A stretch of DNA of 42,151 nt, taken from Burkholderiaceae bacterium. Its GTDB lineage: Bacteria > Pseudomonadota > Gammaproteobacteria > Burkholderiales > Burkholderiaceae_C. Of this stretch, positions 5,757 through 41,508 are shown one piece after another. The DNA is taken from positions 1-42,151 of the forward strand of contig JANJVX010000195.1 of assembly GCA_024709845.1 (NCBI GenBank), written 5' to 3'. The notes beneath the pieces were generated by a model, which worked only from the letters and a program-made list of their open reading frames with translations, searched no databases and had not been told where the DNA came from. The position numbers and the translations under genes are program-made. How positions within the stretch are numbered: the first letter of the stretch is position 1; each line of letters starts with the position of its first letter.

Positions 5757-7223
<1,467 letters not shown>

Positions 7224-7251: not shown

Positions 7252-8724
7252 ATGAAACGCGCACTCCCCCTTCTGGGCCTGCTGGCCTGTCTTGCCGCTG
7301 GCGCTGCCACCGCGCAGCCTGCCCGCTCTTCCCAACCGCCTGCCAAGGGTGCCTCCACGGCCCAGGCCGGGGCGCTGCCTGCACCGGTTGCGTCTCCCCG
7401 GGCGCAGCAATTCGTGCTCTCCAATGGCATGCAGCTGATCGTGCAGCCCGACCGGCGCGCGCCCACGGCCGTGCACATGGTGTGGCTGCGCGTGGGCGCG
7501 ATGGACGAGGTGGACGGCACCTCGGGCGTGGCCCATGTGCTGGAGCACATGATGTTCAAGGGCTCCAAGGTGGTGCCGCCGGGCGATTTTTCGCGCCGCG
7601 TGGCGGCGCTGGGCGGCACCGAGAACGCTTTCACCAGCCGGGACTACACCGGTTACTACCAGCAGATTCCGGCACACCGGCTCGAAGACGTGATGCGCCT
7701 GGAGGCCGACCGCTTTGCCAACAACCATTGGCCCGATGCCGAGTTCCGCAAGGAGATCGAGGTGGTCAAGGAAGAGCGCCGCCTGCGCACCGAAGACCAG
7801 CCGCGTGCCCTGCTGTGGGAGCAGCTCAGCGCCGCCGCCTTCACGGCGTCGCCTTACCGCCGCCCGGTGGTGGGCTGGATGAGCGACCTGGAGGCCATGA
7901 CCCCCGAGGATGTGCGCCAGTTCCACCGCCAGTGGTACGTGCCGGGCAACGCCGCCGTGGTGGTGGCGGGCGATGTGGATGTGCAGCAGGTGCGCGCGCT
8001 GGCCGAAAAGTACTACGGCAGCATTCCGCCGCGTGCCCTGCCCGAGCGCAAGCCGCGCACCGAGCCGCCACAGCGCGGCCTGCGGCGCATTGCCGTCAAG
8101 GCGCCCGCCGAGCAGGCCTATGTGGCGCTGTCTTTCCGTGTGCCTGGCCTGAGTGCGGCCGATGCGCCCACGGCCGATGACCGGGACGCGCTGGCGCTGG
8201 TGGTGCTCTCGGCCGTGCTCAGCGGCTACGACGGCGCGCGGCTGGAACGCGCGCTCAGCCAGGGGCCGCAGCGCGTGGCCGACAGCGCGGACAGCTCGGC
8301 CTCGGTGGTCGGGCGGGGGCCTGCCCAGTTTGTTCTGACGGGGGTGCCAGCGCAGGGCAAGACCGCGCAGCAGGTGGAGGATGCCTTGCGCGCCGAGGTG
8401 GCGCGCATCGCCCGCGATGGCGTGACCCCGGCCGAGCTCGAACGCGTGAAGACGCAGTGGGTGGCCAGCAAGGTGTATGGCCGGGACTCGCTCCACAGCC
8501 AGGCCAACGAGCTGGGCAGCTACTGGGTGCAGGGCTTTGTGCTCGATGCCGAAGACCGCATCCTGGCGCAGTTGCGCGCCGTGACGCCCCAGCAGGTGCA
8601 GTCGGTGGCGCAGCGCTATTTTGGGGACGACCAGCTCACCGTGGCCACCCTGCTGCCGCAACCGCTGGCCACCGCCGCGCCGCGCACGCCTGCCGCCGCA
8701 GGGGGCACGGGCTCCCGCCATTGA
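7252..8724 (+). CDS. M16 family zinc metallopeptidase (catalytic subunit type)
   Basis: MKRALPLLGLLACLAAGAATA signal peptide; HVLEHMMFKG (HxxEH) motif; M16 domain layout. Confidence 0.92.
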   Translation: MKRALPLLGLLACLAAGAATAQPARSSQPPAKGASTAQAGALPAPVASPRAQQFVLSNGMQLIVQPDRRAPTAVHMVWLRVGAMDEVDGTSGVAHVLEHMMFKGSKVVPPGDFSRRVAALGGTENAFTSRDYTGYYQQIPAHRLEDVMRLEADRFANNHWPDAEFRKEIEVVKEERRLRTEDQPRALLWEQLSAAAFTASPYRRPVVGWMSDLEAMTPEDVRQFHRQWYVPGNAAVVVAGDVDVQQVRALAEKYYGSIPPRALPERKPRTEPPQRGLRRIAVKAPAEQAYVALSFRVPGLSAADAPTADDRDALALVVLSAVLSGYDGARLERALSQGPQRVADSADSSASVVGRGPAQFVLTGVPAQGKTAQQVEDALRAEVARIARDGVTPAELERVKTQWVASKVYGRDSLHSQANELGSYWVQGFVLDAEDRILAQLRAVTPQQVQSVAQRYFGDDQLTVATLLPQPLATAAPRTPAAAGGTGSRH

Positions 8725-8747: not shown

Positions 8748-10094
8748 ATGAACGCTATTAAATGGATAGCTGCTCGCGCTTTATTGGTAAGCGCTGGAGC
8801 GGTTTTTTATGCTCAATCCGCCTGGGCCTTGCTGCCCATCCAGCACTGGCAGGAGCCCAGCGGGGCGCGGGTCTGGCTGGTGGAGAGCCCGGCCATTCCG
8901 ATGGTGGATATCCAGATCGACTTCGACGCCGGCAGCCGCCGCGACCCGGCCGCGAAGGCCGGGCTGGCCCGTGCCGTGGCCAGCATGGTCTCCAAGGGGG
9001 TGCGCGCCGGGCGGGGGGCTGCGGCGCTGGATGAAAACGCCCTGGGTGAGGCCTGGGCCGATCTCGGGGGGCAGTTTGAGGCCAGCGCCGGCAACGATGC
9101 CCTGAGCTTTTCGCTGCGCTCGCTGACCGCCCCCGACCTGCTCGACAAGGCCGTCCACCTGGCCGCGCGCCAGATGGCCGAGCCCGCCTGGCCGCAGGAC
9201 GTGTGGGAGCGCGATCGCGCGCGCTGGAGTGCCTCCATCCGCGAGGCCGATACGCGCCCCGGCACGGTGGCGGGCAAGGCCTATGCCGAGGCGGTGTATG
9301 GCACCCATCCGTATGGGCAGCGCGCCACCGAGGCGACCCTGGCGCGCATCCAGGTGGCCGATATGCAGCAGTTTCACGCCCGCTACCTCGATGTCTGCCG
9401 CGCGCGCGTGCACATCGTGGGCGCGGTCGAGCGCGCACAGGCGCGCCTGCTGGTGGCGGCCTTGCTGTCGCGCCTGCCCGCGGCCAGCCGCTGCGAACCC
9501 CTGCCCGCCGTGCCCGAGGTGCAGGCGCTGGCGGCCCCGGTGCAGAAGGACATTGCTTTTGCCTCGGCGCAGTCGCATGTGCTCATCGGCCAGCCCGGCT
9601 TCAAGCGCAGCGACCCGGACTTTCTCGCGCTGCTGGTGGGCAACCACATCCTGGGCGGTGGCGGCTTTGTCTCGCGCCTGACGGAAGAGGTGCGCGAGAA
9701 GCGCGGCCTGAGTTACAGCGTCTACAGCGGCTTCGCCCCCGGCCTGCACGCGGGCGCCTTCACCGTCGGCCTGCAGACCCGGCCCGACCAGGCGGCGCAG
9801 GCCGTGCAGGTGGTGCGCGAGGTGCTGGAGCGTTTCGTGGCCGAGGGGCCCACCGAAGAGGAACTGCGCGCTGCCAAGGACAACCTGGTGGGCGGCTTTG
9901 CGCTGCGCATCGACAGCAACCGCAAGTGGCTGGGCCAGGTGGTGAACATTGCCGCCAACGGGCTGCCGCTCGACTATCTGGAGGGCTGGACAAAGCGCGT
10001 GGAGGCACTCACCGTGGCCGACATCCGCGCCGCCATGGCGCGCAAGCTCCAGCCCGCGCGCATGGTCACCGTGGTGCTGGGGGCCCAGCCATGA
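8748..10094 (+). CDS. M16 family peptidase-like protein (apparently lacks HxxEH)
   Basis: ORF after the first M16 gene; LLPIQHWQEPSGARVWLVESPAIPMVDIQIDFDAGSRRDPAAKAGLARAVASMV...EEVREKRGLSYSVYSGF; no HxxEH seen. Confidence 0.9.
   Translation: MNAIKWIAARALLVSAGAVFYAQSAWALLPIQHWQEPSGARVWLVESPAIPMVDIQIDFDAGSRRDPAAKAGLARAVASMVSKGVRAGRGAAALDENALGEAWADLGGQFEASAGNDALSFSLRSLTAPDLLDKAVHLAARQMAEPAWPQDVWERDRARWSASIREADTRPGTVAGKAYAEAVYGTHPYGQRATEATLARIQVADMQQFHARYLDVCRARVHIVGAVERAQARLLVAALLSRLPAASRCEPLPAVPEVQALAAPVQKDIAFASAQSHVLIGQPGFKRSDPDFLALLVGNHILGGGGFVSRLTEEVREKRGLSYSVYSGFAPGLHAGAFTVGLQTRPDQAAQAVQVVREVLERFVAEGPTEEELRAAKDNLVGGFALRIDSNRKWLGQVVNIAANGLPLDYLEGWTKRVEALTVADIRAAMARKLQPARMVTVVLGAQP
8754..8808 (+). 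repeat. Dispersed hairpin repeat family 1, copy B (inside the M16 signal-peptide coding region)
   Basis: GCTATTAAATGGATAGCTGCTCGCGCTTTATTGGTAAGCGCTGGAGCGGTTTTTT; hairpin GCGCTT-N7-AAGCGC. Confidence 0.85.
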
Positions 10095-10756: not shown

Positions 10757-10811
10757 GCTATTGATTAAATAGCTGCTTGCGCTTATTGGCAGAGCGCTAG
10801 AGCCGTTTTTT
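10757..10811 (+). repeat. Dispersed hairpin repeat family 1, copy C (rsmD-coaD intergenic)
   Basis: GCTATTGATTAAATAGCTGCTTGCGCTTATTGGCAGAGCGCTAGAGCCGTTTTTT. Confidence 0.88.
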
Positions 10812-10842
10812 GCATTATTTTTCGCTCCACAGGAATCCGTCC

Positions 10843-11362: not shown

Positions 11363-13105
11363 TCAGGCCAGACTCGCACGTTCGGGTCGATATCCGGCAA
11401 AAAAGCGTTCTGCCTCGGGGGCAGGTACGGGGCGGCTGCACAGATAGCCCTGGAACTGCTCGCAGCCGAGCTGGCGAAGAAGCTCCAGTTGTTCGCGGTG
11501 TTCGACCCCTTCGGCGATCACATGCATGCCAAAGCTGTGCGCCATGGCGATGATGGCCCGGGTGATGGCCACGTCGCCCGCATCTCCGGGAATGTTGCGC
11601 ACAAAGCCCTGGTCGATCTTCAGGGCGTCGAGTGGATAGCGCTTGAGGTAGGACAGGCTGGAATAGCCGGTCCCAAAGTCGTCCATCGACAGTTGCACGC
11701 CCAGGGCCTTGCAACCCTGCATCAGGCCCAGGGTGCTGGTTACGCTGTGCAGGGCGATGCTTTCGGTCACTTCCAGCTCCAGCACGTGGGGGGGGAGCCC
11801 TGTGTCGTGCAGTACGGTGCGCACCAGGGAGGGCAGGTCCTCGCGGGCAAACTGGCGCACCGACAGATTGACGGCTACATGGAAATCATCGCGCCCCTGG
11901 CTGCGCACCCATTGCGCCGCCTGCGCAGCCGCGGTGCGCAGCACCCATTCGCCGATGGGGATGATGACGTCGCTTTCTTCGGCCACGGGGATGAATTCCC
12001 CGGGTGAAACCCAGCCAAGCTCCGGGTGCTGCCAGCGCAGCAAGGCTTCAAAACCCACGAGCGCGCCATCGCTGATGCGGATCTGTGGCTGGTAGAACAG
12101 GCGCAGTTCGCCCTGGTCCAGCGCCCTGTGCAGGGCGTTGTTCAGGCGCAAGCGGCGCACGACCTGCTGGGACTGTGCCGCGTCAAAAAGTTGCCAGCTT
12201 CCGGGGCCGCGGGGTTTGGCGTGGTACAGCGCCGCCTCGGCCTGGCCGACCAGCGTGGCGTGCTGGATCTCGCTGTCCTGGTGTTCGCTGGCACCGGCGC
12301 AGGCGCTCAGGAAAAGGTTTTGCCCATTGACCTCCAGCGGTTGCGTGACTGCGGCGAGGATGGCCTGCACGCGCTGGATCAGTGCATCGGGCTCCAGATC
12401 GGCAAGGCAGACCAGGAACAGGTCGCCCGAGAGGCGGCCGACAAATCCATGCTCGGGGGGGTGGGTGAATGGCAGCTGTTGCACCAGTGCGCACAGGCGT
12501 TGTGCCGTCTCGCGCAGCACGGTGTCGCCTGCGGGGCGGCCCAGGGATTCGTTGATCTTGGCAAAGCCATGCAGGCCCACGCACACCACGGCGCAGCCCC
12601 GCCCGTTTTCGCGGCTGCGCTGCAGCACCTGGGCCATTTGCGCCTCGAAGGCTTCTTTCAGGGGCAGGGCGGTCAGCGCATCCAGTCCGCCGCCGGCGGC
12701 GGCCGCACTGTGCAGGTGGGCCTGCGCCAGGCGAAGGCTGGCGCTGCGCGCCAGGCGGCTCTGCAGGGTGGTGAGCAGTTCCTCGCGCTGGTAGGGCTTG
12801 GTGAGGTAGTCGTCGGCGCCCACGTTCATGCCGGCGCGGATGTCGCTGCGGTCGGCCTTGGCCGACAGCATGATGATGGGTGTGGTGCACAGTTGCATGT
12901 CCGTGCGCATGGCCTGCACCAGGCCGAATCCATCCAGGTGAGGCATCATCACGTCGGTGATGAGCAGGTCCGGCGTGTTCTGGCGTGCCAGGGCCAGGGC
13001 CTCGTTGCCATCGCTGGCGACCAAGACGTCATAGCCCTCCATTTCGAGCAGCCATTGCAGGTTTTGGCGCAGCGCGGGCTCGTCTTCTGCGATCAGGATT
13101 TTCAT
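11363..13105 (-). CDS. Response regulator with REC, degenerate GGDEF and EAL domains (probable c-di-GMP phosphodiesterase)
   Basis: MKILIAEDEPALRQNLQWLLEMEGYDVLVASDGNEAL...; RLSGDLF in place of GGDEF; FEALLRWQHPELGW and DDFGTGYSSLSYLKRYPLDALKID intact. Confidence 0.9.
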   Translation of the reverse strand: MKILIAEDEPALRQNLQWLLEMEGYDVLVASDGNEALALARQNTPDLLITDVMMPHLDGFGLVQAMRTDMQLCTTPIIMLSAKADRSDIRAGMNVGADDYLTKPYQREELLTTLQSRLARSASLRLAQAHLHSAAAAGGGLDALTALPLKEAFEAQMAQVLQRSRENGRGCAVVCVGLHGFAKINESLGRPAGDTVLRETAQRLCALVQQLPFTHPPEHGFVGRLSGDLFLVCLADLEPDALIQRVQAILAAVTQPLEVNGQNLFLSACAGASEHQDSEIQHATLVGQAEAALYHAKPRGPGSWQLFDAAQSQQVVRRLRLNNALHRALDQGELRLFYQPQIRISDGALVGFEALLRWQHPELGWVSPGEFIPVAEESDVIIPIGEWVLRTAAAQAAQWVRSQGRDDFHVAVNLSVRQFAREDLPSLVRTVLHDTGLPPHVLELEVTESIALHSVTSTLGLMQGCKALGVQLSMDDFGTGYSSLSYLKRYPLDALKIDQGFVRNIPGDAGDVAITRAIIAMAHSFGMHVIAEGVEHREQLELLRQLGCEQFQGYLCSRPVPAPEAERFFAGYRPERASLA

Positions 13106-14757
13106 GGTGTGCTCCCGGTGAGCGGCAAGGTGATGGTGAAGCAGCTTCCTGCGCCGACCTGACTTTGCAGCGTGATGGTGCCGCCATGGCGCTGCACCGC
13201 CTGCTGGACGATGGCCAGACCCAGCCCCGTGCCCGGAATGGCCCCCACGTTGCTGGCGCGCTGAAAGCCCTTGAACAGACCGGCCTGGTCGGCCTCGGGG
13301 ATGCCAATGCCCTGGTCGCTCACCACGATCTCCAGGTTGTGGGCTTTCTGGCGCGCGCGCAGCAGGATGTTGCCGCCCTGGGGGGAGTACTTGAGTGCAT
13401 TGGTCAGCAGATTGCTCAAAATGTGGCGCAGCAACCCTGCATCGAGCAGGTGGGTTTGGGTCTCTTCGGGCAAGTCCAGTTGCCACTGGACGCGTTGGTA
13501 GGCCGTGGTCATGGCGCTGCGCAGCTCGTCCAGCAGCGACTGGCAAAACGGCGCCAGGGCCATGGGGGCCGGGCGAAATTCCAGCTGGCCTGCATCATGC
13601 CGCCCGATGAGCAGCACGTTGTCGAGCAGGTGCGTCATGCGCTGCACGGCATCCTCAATTTTGTCCAGGGTGGTCTGCTTCTGCAGGGCTGTCATGCGCG
13701 CCTCGTAGTGCTGCAGCAGTTCCACCGAGCCGTGGATGGTCGCCAGGGGGGTTCGGAATTCGTGCGACGCCATCGAGATGAACCGCGCCTTGAGGTTCGC
13801 GATTTCGACCTGGTTCTCGATGGCCTGGCGTTGTGCCGCCTCGGCGCGCAGGCGGGCTGTGGCATCCACCACGAACATCAGCGTGGCAGGGCGCCCTTCC
13901 CACTCCAGGGTGACGGCCGAGAGTTCGAGCGAACGGACTTCGCCGGACGGGGTGACGATCCGGAAGCCATAGTGCTCTTCGACCGGCTCGCCATGCAGGC
14001 GCCGCTGGTGGCGATCGATCATGGCGGATACGTCTTCGGGGTGAACGGTGGAGGTGAAGGGGTGGCTGAGCAGGTATTCGTGTGAATATCCGACAATGCG
14101 TTCGAGCGCCGGATTGACAAAGACCATGTGTCCGTCCTGCACCACCACCACGCCAACGCCGACCTTTTCGATCACGCTGCGGTAGCGCTCCTCGGATTTG
14201 CGCAGCGCATCCAGGGCTTGGTGGCGTTCGATGGCGCTGCCCAATTGGTGCGCGACGAAGTTCAGGATGTCCGCGTCTTCGGGGGTGTAGAACTGCGTTC
14301 CGCTGTAGTCCTGCACCGCCACCACGCCGCCGATGCGTCCGCGGATGGTGATGGGAACGCCCAGCCAGGAGTTGAAGCTGGCGTCTCCGCGCACGCTGGT
14401 CACTTCTCCGCTGTGTGCCAGCCGGGCAAGGCGCTCTTGGTCGACGATCTGGGGTTGCCCGGTGCGCAGGACGAAATCCGTCAACCCCCGGCGCACCGGG
14501 ACATTGCTCTGCTGCAAGGCATTGCCGTCGCGTTCATCCACATAGTAGGGGAAGTGGTTGGTTTGCTGCGTAGCGTTGTGCAGGCACACATAGCAATTGG
14601 GAGCGTGGATCAGTTCGGCCAGCAGGAAGTGGATGTCGCGCAAGAAGTCGTGCAGGGTCAGCCCGGCGCTGGCGCGCTCGGCCATGCGGAAGAACACGTT
14701 CTGCAGCAGGGCAGCGCGCAGCGCGTCGGCGGAAGGGGGTGGGGTGGTTTCCGTCAT
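13102..14757 (-). CDS. GAF-PAS sensor histidine kinase
   Basis: GAF-like N-terminus, PAS, SMASHEFRTPLATIHGSVELL H-box, NLLTNALKYSPQGG N-box, VSDQGIGIP, GTGLGLAIVQQAV; ATGA overlap with the next gene. Confidence 0.92.
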   Translation of the reverse strand: MTETTPPPSADALRAALLQNVFFRMAERASAGLTLHDFLRDIHFLLAELIHAPNCYVCLHNATQQTNHFPYYVDERDGNALQQSNVPVRRGLTDFVLRTGQPQIVDQERLARLAHSGEVTSVRGDASFNSWLGVPITIRGRIGGVVAVQDYSGTQFYTPEDADILNFVAHQLGSAIERHQALDALRKSEERYRSVIEKVGVGVVVVQDGHMVFVNPALERIVGYSHEYLLSHPFTSTVHPEDVSAMIDRHQRRLHGEPVEEHYGFRIVTPSGEVRSLELSAVTLEWEGRPATLMFVVDATARLRAEAAQRQAIENQVEIANLKARFISMASHEFRTPLATIHGSVELLQHYEARMTALQKQTTLDKIEDAVQRMTHLLDNVLLIGRHDAGQLEFRPAPMALAPFCQSLLDELRSAMTTAYQRVQWQLDLPEETQTHLLDAGLLRHILSNLLTNALKYSPQGGNILLRARQKAHNLEIVVSDQGIGIPEADQAGLFKGFQRASNVGAIPGTGLGLAIVQQAVQRHGGTITLQSQVGAGSCFTITLPLTGSTP

Positions 14758-16646
14758 GTGGCCTCGTGCTGTGTGCCCAAGGGCAGCACCACCGTGAAGC
14801 GGGTACCGTGATTGACGGAGCTTTCCACTTCGATCCGCCCCTGGTGCAATTGCACGGCTGTCTTGACGATGGCCAGCCCCAGGCCGGTGCCGGCGATGTG
14901 CCCCACGTTGCTGGCGCGGTGAAAGCTGTCGAACAAGTGATCGATTTCCGCAGCAGGGATGCCAATGCCCTGGTCCTGCACCACGAAGACCAGCTCCTTG
15001 TTGTTTGGGGCATGTGCCGTGAATCGAATTTCCCCGCCCTGGGGCGAGTATTTGAAGGCGTTGGTGAGCAGGTTGGAAAAAATGTGGCGCAGCAGCTTTT
15101 CGTCGGCCAGCACCGGTTCCGGCAGAAGGCTCCAGTCGGTGTGCAGTGTGCACTGGGAACTGCGCCACTGGGCCTGGACATCGTCCACCAGGGTTTGGCA
15201 CCAGGTTTTCAGATTCAGGGGGGCGGGCTTGAATTCGAGCATGCCTGCGTCGGAGCGTCCCAGCATCAGCACACGGTCCAGCATGTGGGTCATGCGGTGC
15301 ACGCTGTCCTGGATGGTGTGCAGGACGTCCTGGCGATCCTTGCCGGAAAGGCGCTCGCTGTAATGTGTGAGCAGCTCGACGGAGGAAAGAATGGCTGCCA
15401 ACGGGGTACGGAATTCGTGGCTGGTCATGGCCACAAAGCGTGAGCGCAGCTCATTCAGCTCCTTTTGCTGGGCCAGCGCCCGGTGGGTCTCCAGTTCGGC
15501 CTGCCGCCGTTCGGTGATGTCCAGCAGCGTCCAGATCACACCGGCGTCGGGCTGGAAGGGTTCCACGCATTGGCCATCCATTTGGACCCACAGCATGCGT
15601 CCATCGCAGCGGCGCAGGGCGCGCTCGTGGGAATAGGTGCTGTGTGCGGCCAGTGCGGCGTGCTGAATGCGGCCCAGTTCCTCCCATTCGGTATGGCTGT
15701 CGTACAGAAACTCCGTGCTTTTTCCCAGCAGCTGAGTGTCTGTGTAGCCCAGCATGTCGGCAATGCGCCGGTTGGTCCACTGGATCGTCCGGCCCTTGAC
15801 CAGCGCCATGCCGACCAGGGCTGTATTCAAAAGTGCTTCGCGTTCGGCCCAGGTCCGCTGCAATGCGGCATCGGCCACCTTGCGCTCGGTAATATCGGAA
15901 AAAAAGGTCAGGGTGGCGCCTGCGCCGTCCCAGGGGACCAGGGTCACACCGATGTCGAGCCATCGCACCATGCCGTCCGGCATGAGCAGACGAATCTCGT
16001 AGCGGTTGGGTACATCTTCTCCGGCGAGGCGCCGACGTCTGCGTTCGTCGACCATCGCACGGTCATCCGGATGGATGAGATGCAAATAGCCCTTGCGCAT
16101 CAGCTCTTCCTTGTCCATGTGCAAGAGCTCGGCGGCCCGCCGGTTGACGAATGCGAAATGCCCGTCCTGAACCACGAGCATGCCTTCGCCTGAGTGCTCG
16201 ACCACCAGGCGGTAACGCTCTTCCGAATGCCGCAGCGCCTCGACCATGGCGCGCTGTTCGGTCACTTCGGTGAAATAGGTGAGGGTGGCAGGTTTCCCCT
16301 CCCAGGGCACGACCCGGGGGCGTACGCTGAGCCAGCGCACCACGCCGTCCTGCCCAATGTGGCGCAGTTCCTCGTTGGCATGGGGATCGGGGTGGCTCTG
16401 CAGTGCGGCGCGCAGTGCCAGGGCGCGGGGCTGGTCTTCCGGATGCAGCCAGACCACGGGATCGGCCCCCATGAGCTTGTGAAGGGGGATGCGCAAGATG
16501 TCGACCGCCATGCGGTTGGCGAACACCACCCGGTCGTCCTGCACCACGAACAAGCCCTCTGCCAGGTTTTCGACCACCTGGCGGCATTGCTCCTGCGAGT
16601 TGTAGCCGGGCAGGTCGACCGAGGAGGTGGTGGAGGGGCTGGTCAT
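14754..16646 (-). CDS. Multi-PAS sensor histidine kinase
   Basis: Three PAS-like segments; AMTSHEFRTPLAAILSSVELL H-box; HATPase motifs NLLTNAFKYSPQGG, VQDQGIGIP, GTGLGLAIVK. Confidence 0.92.
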   Translation of the reverse strand: MTSPSTTSSVDLPGYNSQEQCRQVVENLAEGLFVVQDDRVVFANRMAVDILRIPLHKLMGADPVVWLHPEDQPRALALRAALQSHPDPHANEELRHIGQDGVVRWLSVRPRVVPWEGKPATLTYFTEVTEQRAMVEALRHSEERYRLVVEHSGEGMLVVQDGHFAFVNRRAAELLHMDKEELMRKGYLHLIHPDDRAMVDERRRRRLAGEDVPNRYEIRLLMPDGMVRWLDIGVTLVPWDGAGATLTFFSDITERKVADAALQRTWAEREALLNTALVGMALVKGRTIQWTNRRIADMLGYTDTQLLGKSTEFLYDSHTEWEELGRIQHAALAAHSTYSHERALRRCDGRMLWVQMDGQCVEPFQPDAGVIWTLLDITERRQAELETHRALAQQKELNELRSRFVAMTSHEFRTPLAAILSSVELLTHYSERLSGKDRQDVLHTIQDSVHRMTHMLDRVLMLGRSDAGMLEFKPAPLNLKTWCQTLVDDVQAQWRSSQCTLHTDWSLLPEPVLADEKLLRHIFSNLLTNAFKYSPQGGEIRFTAHAPNNKELVFVVQDQGIGIPAAEIDHLFDSFHRASNVGHIAGTGLGLAIVKTAVQLHQGRIEVESSVNHGTRFTVVLPLGTQHEAT

Positions 16647-26310: not shown

Positions 26311-26363
26311 AGGTCTTTTTGACCTCAAGCGCTTTTCAGTCAAGCGCGAGCAGCTATGAAAAT
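26311..26363 (-). repeat. Dispersed hairpin repeat family 1, copy D (spans secB-gpsA spacer and gpsA start codon)
   Basis: Minus strand: ATTTTCATAGCTGCTCGCGCTTGACTGAAAAGCGCTTGAGGTCAAAAAGACCT; hairpin GCGCTT-N7-AAGCGC plus GGTC-AAAAA-GACC. Confidence 0.85.
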
Positions 26364-27366
26364 CGTAGTGATTGGTGCCGGTGCCTGGGGCACGGCCATG
26401 GCCATCAGCGCCGCCGCGCACCCTGCGGGCCATGCCGTCACCTTGTGGGCGCGCGATGCCGCGCAGGTGGCCGACATGCAGGCCGTGCGCAGCAATGCGC
26501 GCTACCTTCCCGGCATCGGCCTGCCGCCTTCCCTGACCGTGGCCGGTGGCGATGTGGCAGCGCTGGCGCACGCCGCCGACCTGGTCATCGTGGCCACGCC
26601 CATGGCGGCTCTGCGCGGCATGCTGGCGCAACTGCGCGGCTGCACCGTCCCCGTGGCCTGGCTGTGCAAGGGCTTCGAGGCGGCTGCAGAAAATTCTGAC
26701 TCTTTTGGCCTGCTGGCGCACGAGGTGCGTGCGCAGGTTGCTCCTGATTTGATCGCGGGCGTGCTCAGCGGCCCGAGTTTCGCGCAGGAAGTGGCGCGAG
26801 CCCAGCCCACGGCCCTGGTGGCCGCCAGCGAGCATGCCAGCGTGCGCGACGCCCTGGTGCGCGCCTTCCACAGCCCCAGCCTGCGCGTGTACGCCAACGA
26901 CGACATCGTGGGCGTGGAGGTGGGCGGCGCCGTGAAGAATGTGCTGGCCATTGCCACCGGCCTGTGCGACGGCCTGCAACTGGGTCTGAACGCCCGCGCG
27001 GCTCTCATCACCCGCGGTCTGGCCGAAATGACGCGCCTGGGCTTGGCCCTGGGCGCGCGCGTGGACACCTTCATGGGCCTGTCGGGCCTGGGCGACCTGG
27101 TGCTTACCGCCACCGGCGACCTCTCGCGCAACCGCCGCGTGGGCCTGCTGCTGGCGCAGGGCCAGACGCTGGCGCAGGCCGTGGCCTCGCTGGGCCATGT
27201 GGCCGAGGGGGTGTACTGCGCCCGCACCGTGGTGCAGCGTGCCCGCCACCTGGGGGTTGAAATGCCCATCAGCGAAGGCGTGGTGGCCCTGCTGGACGGC
27301 CGCTTGCGGCCCGCCGAGGCCGTGGCCGCTCTGATGGAGCGCGAGCCCAAGGGCGAAGGCTCCTGA
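26356..27366 (+). CDS. gpsA: NAD(P)H-dependent glycerol-3-phosphate dehydrogenase
   Basis: [22 protein letters not shown]...[36 protein letters not shown]...[21 protein letters not shown]. Confidence 0.97.
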
Positions 27367-32793: not shown

Positions 32794-32848
32794 GCTCTCT
32801 TTATTATAGCTAACGGCGCTTATGAATAAAGCGCTGGAGGCCAATTTG
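32794..32848 (+). repeat. Dispersed hairpin repeat family 1, copy E (includes pabBC start codon)
   Basis: GCTCTCTTTATTATAGCTAACGGCGCTTATGAATAAAGCGCTGGAGGCCAATTTG; GCGCTT-N7-AAGCGC hairpin. Confidence 0.82.
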
Positions 32849-34606
32849 ACCATTGATTCACTGATCGATTTCAGCGACCCGCGCGACAGCGCCGCGCCGC
32901 GCCTGCGCTGCGCCTTTGCCGCACCGCGCCAGGTGCTGGAGGCCCATGCGCCGGGCGAGGTGCGTGCCGTGCTCGATGCCGTGCAGGCAGCCGCTGCGCA
33001 GGGCGCCTGGTGCGTGGGCGGGCTGCGCTACGAGGCTGCCAGCGCATTCGACCCCGCGCTGCGCACCCACGCCCCGGACGGGCCGCTGGCCTGGTTCGCC
33101 GTGCACGATGCGCCGGCGCCCTGGCCCGATGCGCTGCCCGCAGGCACCCACGCACTGCACTGGGAGAGCGAACCCGGGCGCGCGCGCTTCGACGCCGTGC
33201 TGGCGGCGATCCACCGCGACATTGCCGAGGGCGCCTACTACCAGGTCAACCACACCGCGCAGCTCAGCGGGCGCTTGGAGGGTAGCGCGCTGGCGCTGTT
33301 CGCCGCGCTGCAGCGCGCCCAACCGGGCGGCTATGCGGCCTGCATCGGCATGGGCTGTGAACAGGTGCTGTCGGTTTCGCCCGAGCTGTTTTTCGACTGG
33401 CATGCCACGCCCGATGGCAGCGGCGACATCCTGACCCGGCCCATGAAGGGCACGGCCCCGCGCGGCGCCACGCCCGCCGAGGATGCGGCGCAGGCCGCGC
33501 AATTGCGCGCCTCGCCCAAGGAACGCGCCGAGAACGTGATGATCGTGGACCTGCTGCGCAACGACCTCTCGCGCATTGCCGAGCCGCACAGCGTGCACGC
33601 GCCCCGGCTGTTCCATGCCGAGCCGCTGCCCGCCGTCTGGCAAATGACGTCCGACGTGCAGGCGCGCACCCGCCGCGGCACCCGGCTCTCGGGTGTGTTC
33701 GCGGCGCTGTTCCCCTGCGGCTCGGTCACGGGCGCGCCCAAGGCGCGCGCCATGCAGGCCATCGCCGGATTCGAGGACGGGCCCCGCGGCTTCTACTGCG
33801 GCGCCGTGGGCCTGGTGCGGCCGGGCGCGGATGGCGGCATCCGCGCCACCTTCAACGTGCCCATCCGCACCGTGGTGCTGCGCGGAGCGCAGGCCACGTG
33901 CGGCATTGGCAGCGGCATCACGGCCGACGCCACGGCCGACGCCGAGTGGAACGAATGGCGCCACAAGCGGGCCTTCCTGGAGCGCGCCAGCATGCCTTTC
34001 GACATCCTGGAAACCCTGCGGCTCGATGGTGGCCGGTTCCGCCACCTGGACGAGCACCTCGCGCGCATGCGGCTGGCCGCCGCGCATTTCCACCACCCCT
34101 GGGACGGCGCCGCCGTGCAGCAATGCCTGCACGACCTGGCAGCCGCCCATGCGCAAGGGGCCTGGCGCGTGCGCCTGCTGCAGGGGGCGGCGGGCGCGCC
34201 GCGCGCCGAGGCCTTTGCGCTGCAGCCCACGCCCGAGCCTGTCGTGCTGCGGCTGGCCGACCGCCCGCTGGCCGAGGCGCACGGTGAATTCGTGCGCCAC
34301 AAGACCACGCGGCGTGCGCACTACGCCGCCTTCGCCCCGGCCGTGCCGGGCGTGTTCGACACCGTGCTGTGGAACGCGGCGGGCGAGATCACCGAGGGCA
34401 CCTTTGGCAACATCGCCCTGCTGCTTGACGGCCGCTGGGTCACGCCGCCGCTCGCCTGCGGCCTGCTGCCCGGCGTGGGCCGCGCCGTGGCGCTGCGCGA
34501 GGGGCGCGTGCACGAGGCCGTGGTGCGCCTGGAAGACCTGCCGCGCGTGCAGGGCTGGGCCTTCATCAACAGCCTGCGCGGCTGGCTGGCGGCGGAACTG
34601 GCTTGA
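32822..34606 (+). CDS. pabB: Aminodeoxychorismate synthase component I fused to 4-amino-4-deoxychorismate lyase (PabB-PabC fusion)
   Basis: Chorismate-binding domain (DILTRPMKGTAPRG, VMIVDLLRNDLSRIAE, FPCGSVTGAPKARAM), then class IV aminotransferase-like C-terminus (FDILETLRLDGGRFRHLDEHLARM...NAAGEITEGTFGNIALLLDGRWVTPPLACGLLPG). Confidence 0.94.
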   Translation: MNKALEANLTIDSLIDFSDPRDSAAPRLRCAFAAPRQVLEAHAPGEVRAVLDAVQAAAAQGAWCVGGLRYEAASAFDPALRTHAPDGPLAWFAVHDAPAPWPDALPAGTHALHWESEPGRARFDAVLAAIHRDIAEGAYYQVNHTAQLSGRLEGSALALFAALQRAQPGGYAACIGMGCEQVLSVSPELFFDWHATPDGSGDILTRPMKGTAPRGATPAEDAAQAAQLRASPKERAENVMIVDLLRNDLSRIAEPHSVHAPRLFHAEPLPAVWQMTSDVQARTRRGTRLSGVFAALFPCGSVTGAPKARAMQAIAGFEDGPRGFYCGAVGLVRPGADGGIRATFNVPIRTVVLRGAQATCGIGSGITADATADAEWNEWRHKRAFLERASMPFDILETLRLDGGRFRHLDEHLARMRLAAAHFHHPWDGAAVQQCLHDLAAAHAQGAWRVRLLQGAAGAPRAEAFALQPTPEPVVLRLADRPLAEAHGEFVRHKTTRRAHYAAFAPAVPGVFDTVLWNAAGEITEGTFGNIALLLDGRWVTPPLACGLLPGVGRAVALREGRVHEAVVRLEDLPRVQGWAFINSLRGWLAAELA

Positions 34607-41442: not shown

Positions 41443-41508
41443 GCTATTAAAAGAAGAGCTTACAACGCTTGATGGCAGGGCACTGCAGCCTTGTTTTGCC
41501 TAAAAGAC
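41443..41508 (+). repeat. Dispersed hairpin repeat family 1, copy F (degenerate)
   Basis: GCTATTAAAAGAAGAGCTTACAACGCTTGATGGCAGGGCACTGCAGCCTTGTTTTGCC; same layout as copies A-E but degraded hairpin. Confidence 0.6.

Follow-up and report, generated by a model that had tools for sequence, protein, structure and literature searches.

REP elements and their RAYT transposases (Nunvar 2010, PMC2817692; REPINs, Bertels and Rainey 2011, PMC3116915) are among the closest described systems to the repeat reported here. Both are short palindromic sequences of high copy number and mainly extragenic location, both adjoin a single-copy gene for a Y1-type tyrosine transposase, and both vary in sequence by lineage together with the host. 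The present element differs in having no GTAG/GTGG head, a unit of about 60 bp and, next to the stop codon of the RAYT gene, mostly a single copy instead of two inverted ones; in addition, some of its copies encode conserved predicted signal peptides. REPs inside open reading frames are known, and most of those in N-terminal coding regions may be misannotated (PMC3733652). Palindromic elements of Rickettsia (Ogata 2000, 2002, reviewed in PMC10969869), about 150 bp long and found in unrelated metabolic genes, likewise lie in frame within unrelated protein-coding genes, but they are not reported as export signals in that review. What sets the present case apart from these elements and from REPs in open reading frames is that unrelated genes repeatedly show the repeat in a single frame, at a single position and with a single apparent function, and that this arrangement is conserved between genera.

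Two further descriptions concern related hosts. BRE (PMC3110155), 75–91 bp long and about 69% G+C in Bordetella, is dispersed, mostly intergenic and also present in Polaromonas, Rhodoferax and Acidovorax. We set it aside as the identity of our repeat on length and G+C content, the latter being about 45% in our element; the sequences were not compared directly. PMC5217627 (2017) lists two motif pairs without names: GCTTAT(N)5AAGCG, with 114 copies in Acidovorax ebreus (94% intergenic), and ATAGCT(N)22CAAAAG, with 125 copies in Polaromonas naphthalenivorans (81% intergenic). Compared by eye, each of the two agrees with copies or with the consensus of the present repeat. They were given as potential novel motifs only and were linked neither to RAYTs, nor to each other, nor to signal peptides. 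In the literature that we searched, there was no report of repeat-derived bacterial signal peptides or of a RAYT link of this repeat.

Results

An M16-family gene begins with a copy of the repeat

The window, that is, the whole stretch of 42,151 nucleotides analysed here, derives from a Simplicispira/Acidovorax-like member of the Comamonadaceae. Its M16 gene pair comprises the following features.

7429–8724 (+), upstream adjacent M16 peptidase (Pfam PF00675, 5.8e-23; PF05193, 1.3e-33; HVLEH)
8748–10094 (+), M16-family protein P0001, 448 aa (Pfam PF05193, 8.1e-33; PF00675, 9.3e-07)
8748–8828 (+), predicted signal peptide MNAIKWIAARALLVSAGAVFYAQSAWA (translation; ..SAWA conserved in close orthologues)
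8754–8812 (+), repeat copy B, codons 3–22 of the M16-like gene in frame 0 (72.4 bits)

P0001 carries both M16 domains, but inspection of its protein sequence revealed no HxxEH zinc-binding motif, so that the criterion for a catalytic M16 peptidase is not met. Since the upstream protein does possess such a motif, the two look like an inactive/active pair, and P0001 is likely the non-catalytic partner of its probably catalytic neighbour, as inferred from sequence alone. The upstream frame is open from 6571 and its true start is uncertain. Two short tandem-repeat tracts (6712–6843 and 6904–7029, with GGAGCT and ACAGGCGGY units) lie between an FtsY-like gene and this first M16 gene. Elsewhere in the window (13102–16646), a neighbouring gene pair contains stretches that are 78–80% identical (13193–13449 and 14851–15110), and a tandem duplication is likely.

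By inspection, not by SignalP, MNAIKWIAARALLVSAGAVFYAQSAWA shows basic residues (K5 and R10), a hydrophobic centre with a mean h-region hydropathy of 1.69, and then A-W-A ahead of the predicted cleavage site. An earlier note on this DNA had described the leader of an M16 peptidase as an apparent export signal with an AWA-like cleavage site, codons 3–20 of which were exactly a dispersed repeat. The sequence and translation held as described, and the features of a signal peptide are present, with export and cleavage inferred and without experimental data. Small corrections apply: the M16 family was confirmed but the zinc motif is missing, the repeat spans codons 3–22, and copy B is a typical, not an exact, match to the consensus.

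Against a repeat profile built from 62 other copies of two genomes, from which the leader itself was excluded, 8754–8812 (+) scored 72.4 bits. Because the profile copies had been picked by an exact 16-mer, we also scored only the bases outside this 16-base seed, which still yielded 41.7 bits. Back-translating the leader peptide 20,000 times according to the gene family's codon usage gave scores that averaged −9.8 bits and reached at most 33.6; the highest score under uniform codon usage was 54.6 bits. The score of the actual leader against these synonymous controls, together with the match outside the seed, places the relation at the DNA level. Thus, the M16 leader and the dispersed repeat are homologous as nucleotide sequences, and the synonymous randomisation rules out that they merely converged on a hydrophobic peptide.

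The repeat is a REP-like, RAYT-linked element

The repeat unit consists of a core, ATAGCTGCTNGCGCTT-N7-AAGCGCTRGAGGC, followed by a T-rich end, and contains the stem GCGCTT-N7-AAGCGC within a longer imperfect palindrome. The stem is not kept in all copies, and RNAalifold retained only 3 pairs. The exact 16-mer seed occurred 36 times in the 3.04-Mb partial genome, versus none for a reversed control pattern. With the pooled profile, six copies were detected in the window, copy B and those listed below, while ten shuffles of the window gave no match above 5 bits.

1342–1400 (−), intergenic repeat copy (profile score 57.8)
10757–10815 (+), repeat copy between a Cons_hypoth95 methyltransferase gene (rsmD-like) and a cytidylyltransferase-like gene (coaD-like) (74.9)
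26311–26369 (−), repeat copy between secB and a glycerol-3-phosphate dehydrogenase gene (62.6)
32794–32852 (+), repeat copy that covers the start of a pabBC-like gene, a chorismate-binding/aminotransferase fusion (47.6)
41443–41501 (+), weak intergenic repeat copy (26.8)

The copy at 10757 is kept at about the same place in many Acidovorax-clade loci. It is absent in Rhodoferax and Polaromonas, and therefore the M16 leader copy is the more lasting one. The copy at 32794–32852 is found at the same place in many pabBC-like orthologues; in the window, it may supply the GGAGG (32836–32840) and the TTG start (32846) of this gene, where the ribosome-binding role is inferred. An ATG at 32822, inside the repeat, was rejected as the general pabBC-like start: it is not kept, and its frame contains stops in several orthologues.

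Genomes of relatives contain up to 306 exact seeds, and at least 141–150 matches to the repeat model were found in Polaromonas and Rhodoferax. The majority of copies are intergenic. We detected the repeat in 15 genera of Comamonadaceae and in no other family sampled. Rhodoferax and Polaromonas possess a lineage-specific consensus, and their genus-specific versions (loci L220–L249 and L250–L279; for example TATGCGC and TGCGCAAAAGGC) suggest whole-population turnover within lineages. An apparent strand bias along complete genomes was rejected as an artefact of a strand-sorted list.

Most genomes of the family encode a single Y1_Tnp protein of about 233 aa that matched PF01797 above the cut-off and reached 77–79 bits with NF047646 (NCBI REP-associated tyrosine transposase), just below the cut-off of 80. 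In most loci examined, a repeat-like stretch in reverse orientation starts within about 10 bases of the RAYT-like stop codon. The scores of these stretches mostly exceed the shuffle maxima (6.9 versus −12.3 in the window's own genome) and rise to 57 bits in one genome (G006), so that the adjacency itself is shown. The stretch that overlaps the stop codon is often more degenerate than the dispersed copies (L477, L488, L489 and others). A second copy upstream of the RAYT-like gene was found in a minority of loci and is not always inverted. Since the consensus shows GATAGC/AATAGC in place of the GTAG/GTGG head, and since the flanking pair is usually incomplete, we call the element REP-like and RAYT-linked and not a GTAG REP. 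Its amplification by a vertically inherited, single-copy RAYT-type transposase is likely; this is inferred from linkage, without transposition data.

Repeat-encoded N termini recur in other genes

Searching with the leader peptide, we obtained many more in-frame places beyond the M16 gene. We fetched 20 of them, and most of the interpretable ones proved to be secreted proteins with a repeat leader, always in the same phase (Pfam names GspD secretin, SCO1-SenC, Chalcone_3, SIMPL and cupredoxin). A second search added DUF1775 and an ABC_trans_aux lipoprotein. While Chalcone_3, SIMPL, cupredoxin, DUF1775 and ABC_trans_aux are single cases each, the repeat leader was present in phase 0 in 25/30 loci for GspD and in 28/30 for SCO1, in both far above synonymous controls. 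M16, SCO1 and GspD each show the N-terminal layout expected of Sec signal peptides, in which a basic n-region is followed by a hydrophobic h-region and then by a c-region with AxA or a lipobox, as judged by inspection and hydropathy, not SignalP. GspD leaders end in ..HAQ or ..YAQ on inspection, and in the SCO1 lipoprotein the repeat continues into the lipobox (..IFSAC, ..LLTAC; ..SAC/TAC). Occurrence in several gene families is thereby shown.

Since the repeat also stands in frame 0 at the N terminus of DUF1289, not a typical secreted protein, in two genera (L509, L164), N-terminal fusion does not always mean export. Moreover, leader copies are rare. Among 150 copies sampled from four genomes that had not been chosen for coding, about 2%, or roughly three, were predicted signal peptides in this frame (M16, one in G041 and one in Polaromonas), so the element as such has no specialisation for this role. 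Its recruitment as a leader, with export inferred, is rare per copy, yet recurrent.

The leaders appear to be translated and constrained as protein

Frame 0 is open in all distinct leaders (59 M16, 23 GspD, 27 SCO1), compared with 51% of 176 dispersed copies. The hydropathy of the h-region is likewise raised in M16 (1.76), GspD (1.35) and SCO1 (1.94) versus 0.84 in dispersed copies. Compared with dispersed copies, the leaders are least diverse at codon position 2 (relative diversity M16 0.71, GspD 0.44, SCO1 0.59) and, in M16 and SCO1, most diverse at codon position 3. A coding-type constraint is thus shown. An ATG precedes the repeat in 54/55 distinct repeat-type M16 leaders, and in 36/55 an SD-like motif stands before this start (control rate 0.02). 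ATG or GTG codons at codons 13–32 occur in 30/55, mostly within the 3' part of the repeat and too late for a normal signal peptide. RNA folding of the leader region was not better than that of shuffles (z −0.29), and Rfam gave no match.

The M16 leader is old

M16 orthologues were gathered from whole genomes and named contigs. Repeat-type leaders, in an identical frame and at an identical distance of +6 nt from the ATG, were present in Simplicispira, Acidovorax, Giesbergeria, Diaphorobacter, Extensimonas, Rhodoferax, Polaromonas and Curvibacter, and unrelated leaders in most Ramlibacter and several other lineages. Frame and position are fixed, and the leader is old and common to distant genera, not a recent insertion. 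By the synonymous test, 65/112 tree rows were of the repeat type, a count that takes in eroded, low-scoring leaders. In the tree of the mature protein, the two leader types are strongly clustered, yet 16 changes are needed. Early capture with repeated loss or erosion is therefore likely but not proved; likewise, a single ancestral capture for M16 is an inference that these 16 changes leave without proof.

The M16 leader score tracks the density of exact seeds in the genome (Spearman 0.83, n=50 genomes). This is indicative only, since the correlation is not corrected for phylogeny and the profile and the count share the seed. In one clade (G002, G005, G008), which has 0–3 exact copies per genome, the DNA match is gone and a similar M16 leader peptide stays. 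Where data exist, the match has been lost or almost lost in M16 and GspD; for SCO1, this holds in G002 and G008. As nearly all other members of the genus keep the DNA match, erosion is the simplest reading. The own-genus repeat consensus fits the leaders best in Rhodoferax OV413 and in two Polaromonas leaders, not in G041 or L049; that leaders track genus-specific repeats is possible, but no more than a lead.

The main reading of the earlier note, a dispersed non-coding element exapted as an export signal, is supported by these results in that the DNA homology holds, with export itself inferred in the absence of experimental data. Two observations had been named that would refute it. For the first, translation starting downstream of the repeat, the evidence favours the upstream start, on sequence grounds only; the second, the same leader peptide without repeat DNA in distant orthologues, was met only in the small clade above. 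The two comparisons it had proposed were made: distant genera share the repeat leader while most Ramlibacter differ, and other proteins starting with the translated repeat were found, in the same frame.

Discussion

The M16 leader is very likely a captured copy of a REP-like dispersed element that became a Sec signal peptide, where export and cleavage are inferred. In this view, an imperfect palindrome of about 60 bp would have been amplified in Comamonadaceae genomes, probably via a RAYT-type transposase. One of its six frames would encode roughly A-I-K-x-I-A-A-x-A-L-L-x-S-A-G-A-x-F, a lysine and then a hydrophobic segment, by chance. A copy positioned directly after a start codon in that frame, or one displacing an older leader, would supply the Sec n- and h-regions, and the c-region (AxA or lipobox) would mostly come from the host gene. 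The M16 capture would have preceded the divergence of many Comamonadaceae genera, after which the peptide would have been kept by selection on the protein; like captures would have taken place in several other secreted-protein genes. Transposition and the order of these events are inferred. A bolder reading holds that transposase-maintained repeats are a standing supply of signal peptides, from which new copies keep founding leaders that evolve in concert with the lineage-specific repeat via gene conversion or re-insertion. We regard this version as unlikely.

Among the rival explanations, the one that survives best is that the repeat acts at these genes as a DNA or RNA element (hairpin, RAYT binding, translation control), with the signal peptide as a tolerated by-product. 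In its favour, synonymous positions are conserved too, and codons that are rare in these G+C-rich genomes (ATA, GTA, TTA) recur in distant orthologues. The uncorrected correlation between leader score and genomic copy number, and the fit of the Rhodoferax and Polaromonas leaders to their own consensus, point the same way. However, constraint peaks at codon position 2 in M16, GspD and SCO1 alike, frame-0 stops are lacking, hydropathy is raised, the leader RNA folds no better than shuffles, and the clade G002, G005 and G008 keeps a similar peptide after the DNA match has gone. This alternative is unlikely.

Descent in the opposite direction, with the intergenic copies as offspring of a signal-peptide-coding sequence, is very unlikely. 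In its favour, half of the dispersed copies have retained an open frame 0 and mild hydrophobicity. Against it, many dispersed copies carry a TGA stop in this frame at the loop (GCTTGA; for example in the consensus of G000, G041 and G030), copies are linked to the RAYT-like gene as is usual for REPs, and leaders occur in at least 8 unrelated families with no obvious source. Also very unlikely is a downstream start that would place the repeat in the 5' untranslated region, a reading put forward for numerous REPs at N termini elsewhere: the misannotation warning (PMC3733652) and a GTG or ATG past codon 12 in about half of the orthologues speak for it, but the pre-repeat ATG, its SD-like motifs and the always open frame 0 speak against it, and a later start would strip the signal peptide from proteins that need one.

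We therefore return to the captured REP-like element as the preferred origin of the leader. We found no documented instance in which a known non-coding repeat had given rise to bacterial signal peptides; repeats at N termini have mostly been ascribed to annotation error (PMC3733652). Here, at least three conserved secreted proteins apparently owe their export signals to a single element, among them GspD, the secretin of type II secretion, and an SCO1-family protein, and several others apparently do so too. The sequence itself reveals the direction, the frame and the source in DNA. With this case, the repeat origin of a targeting signal becomes directly testable. The supply of signal peptides would be one concrete benefit that such repeats may bring to their host.
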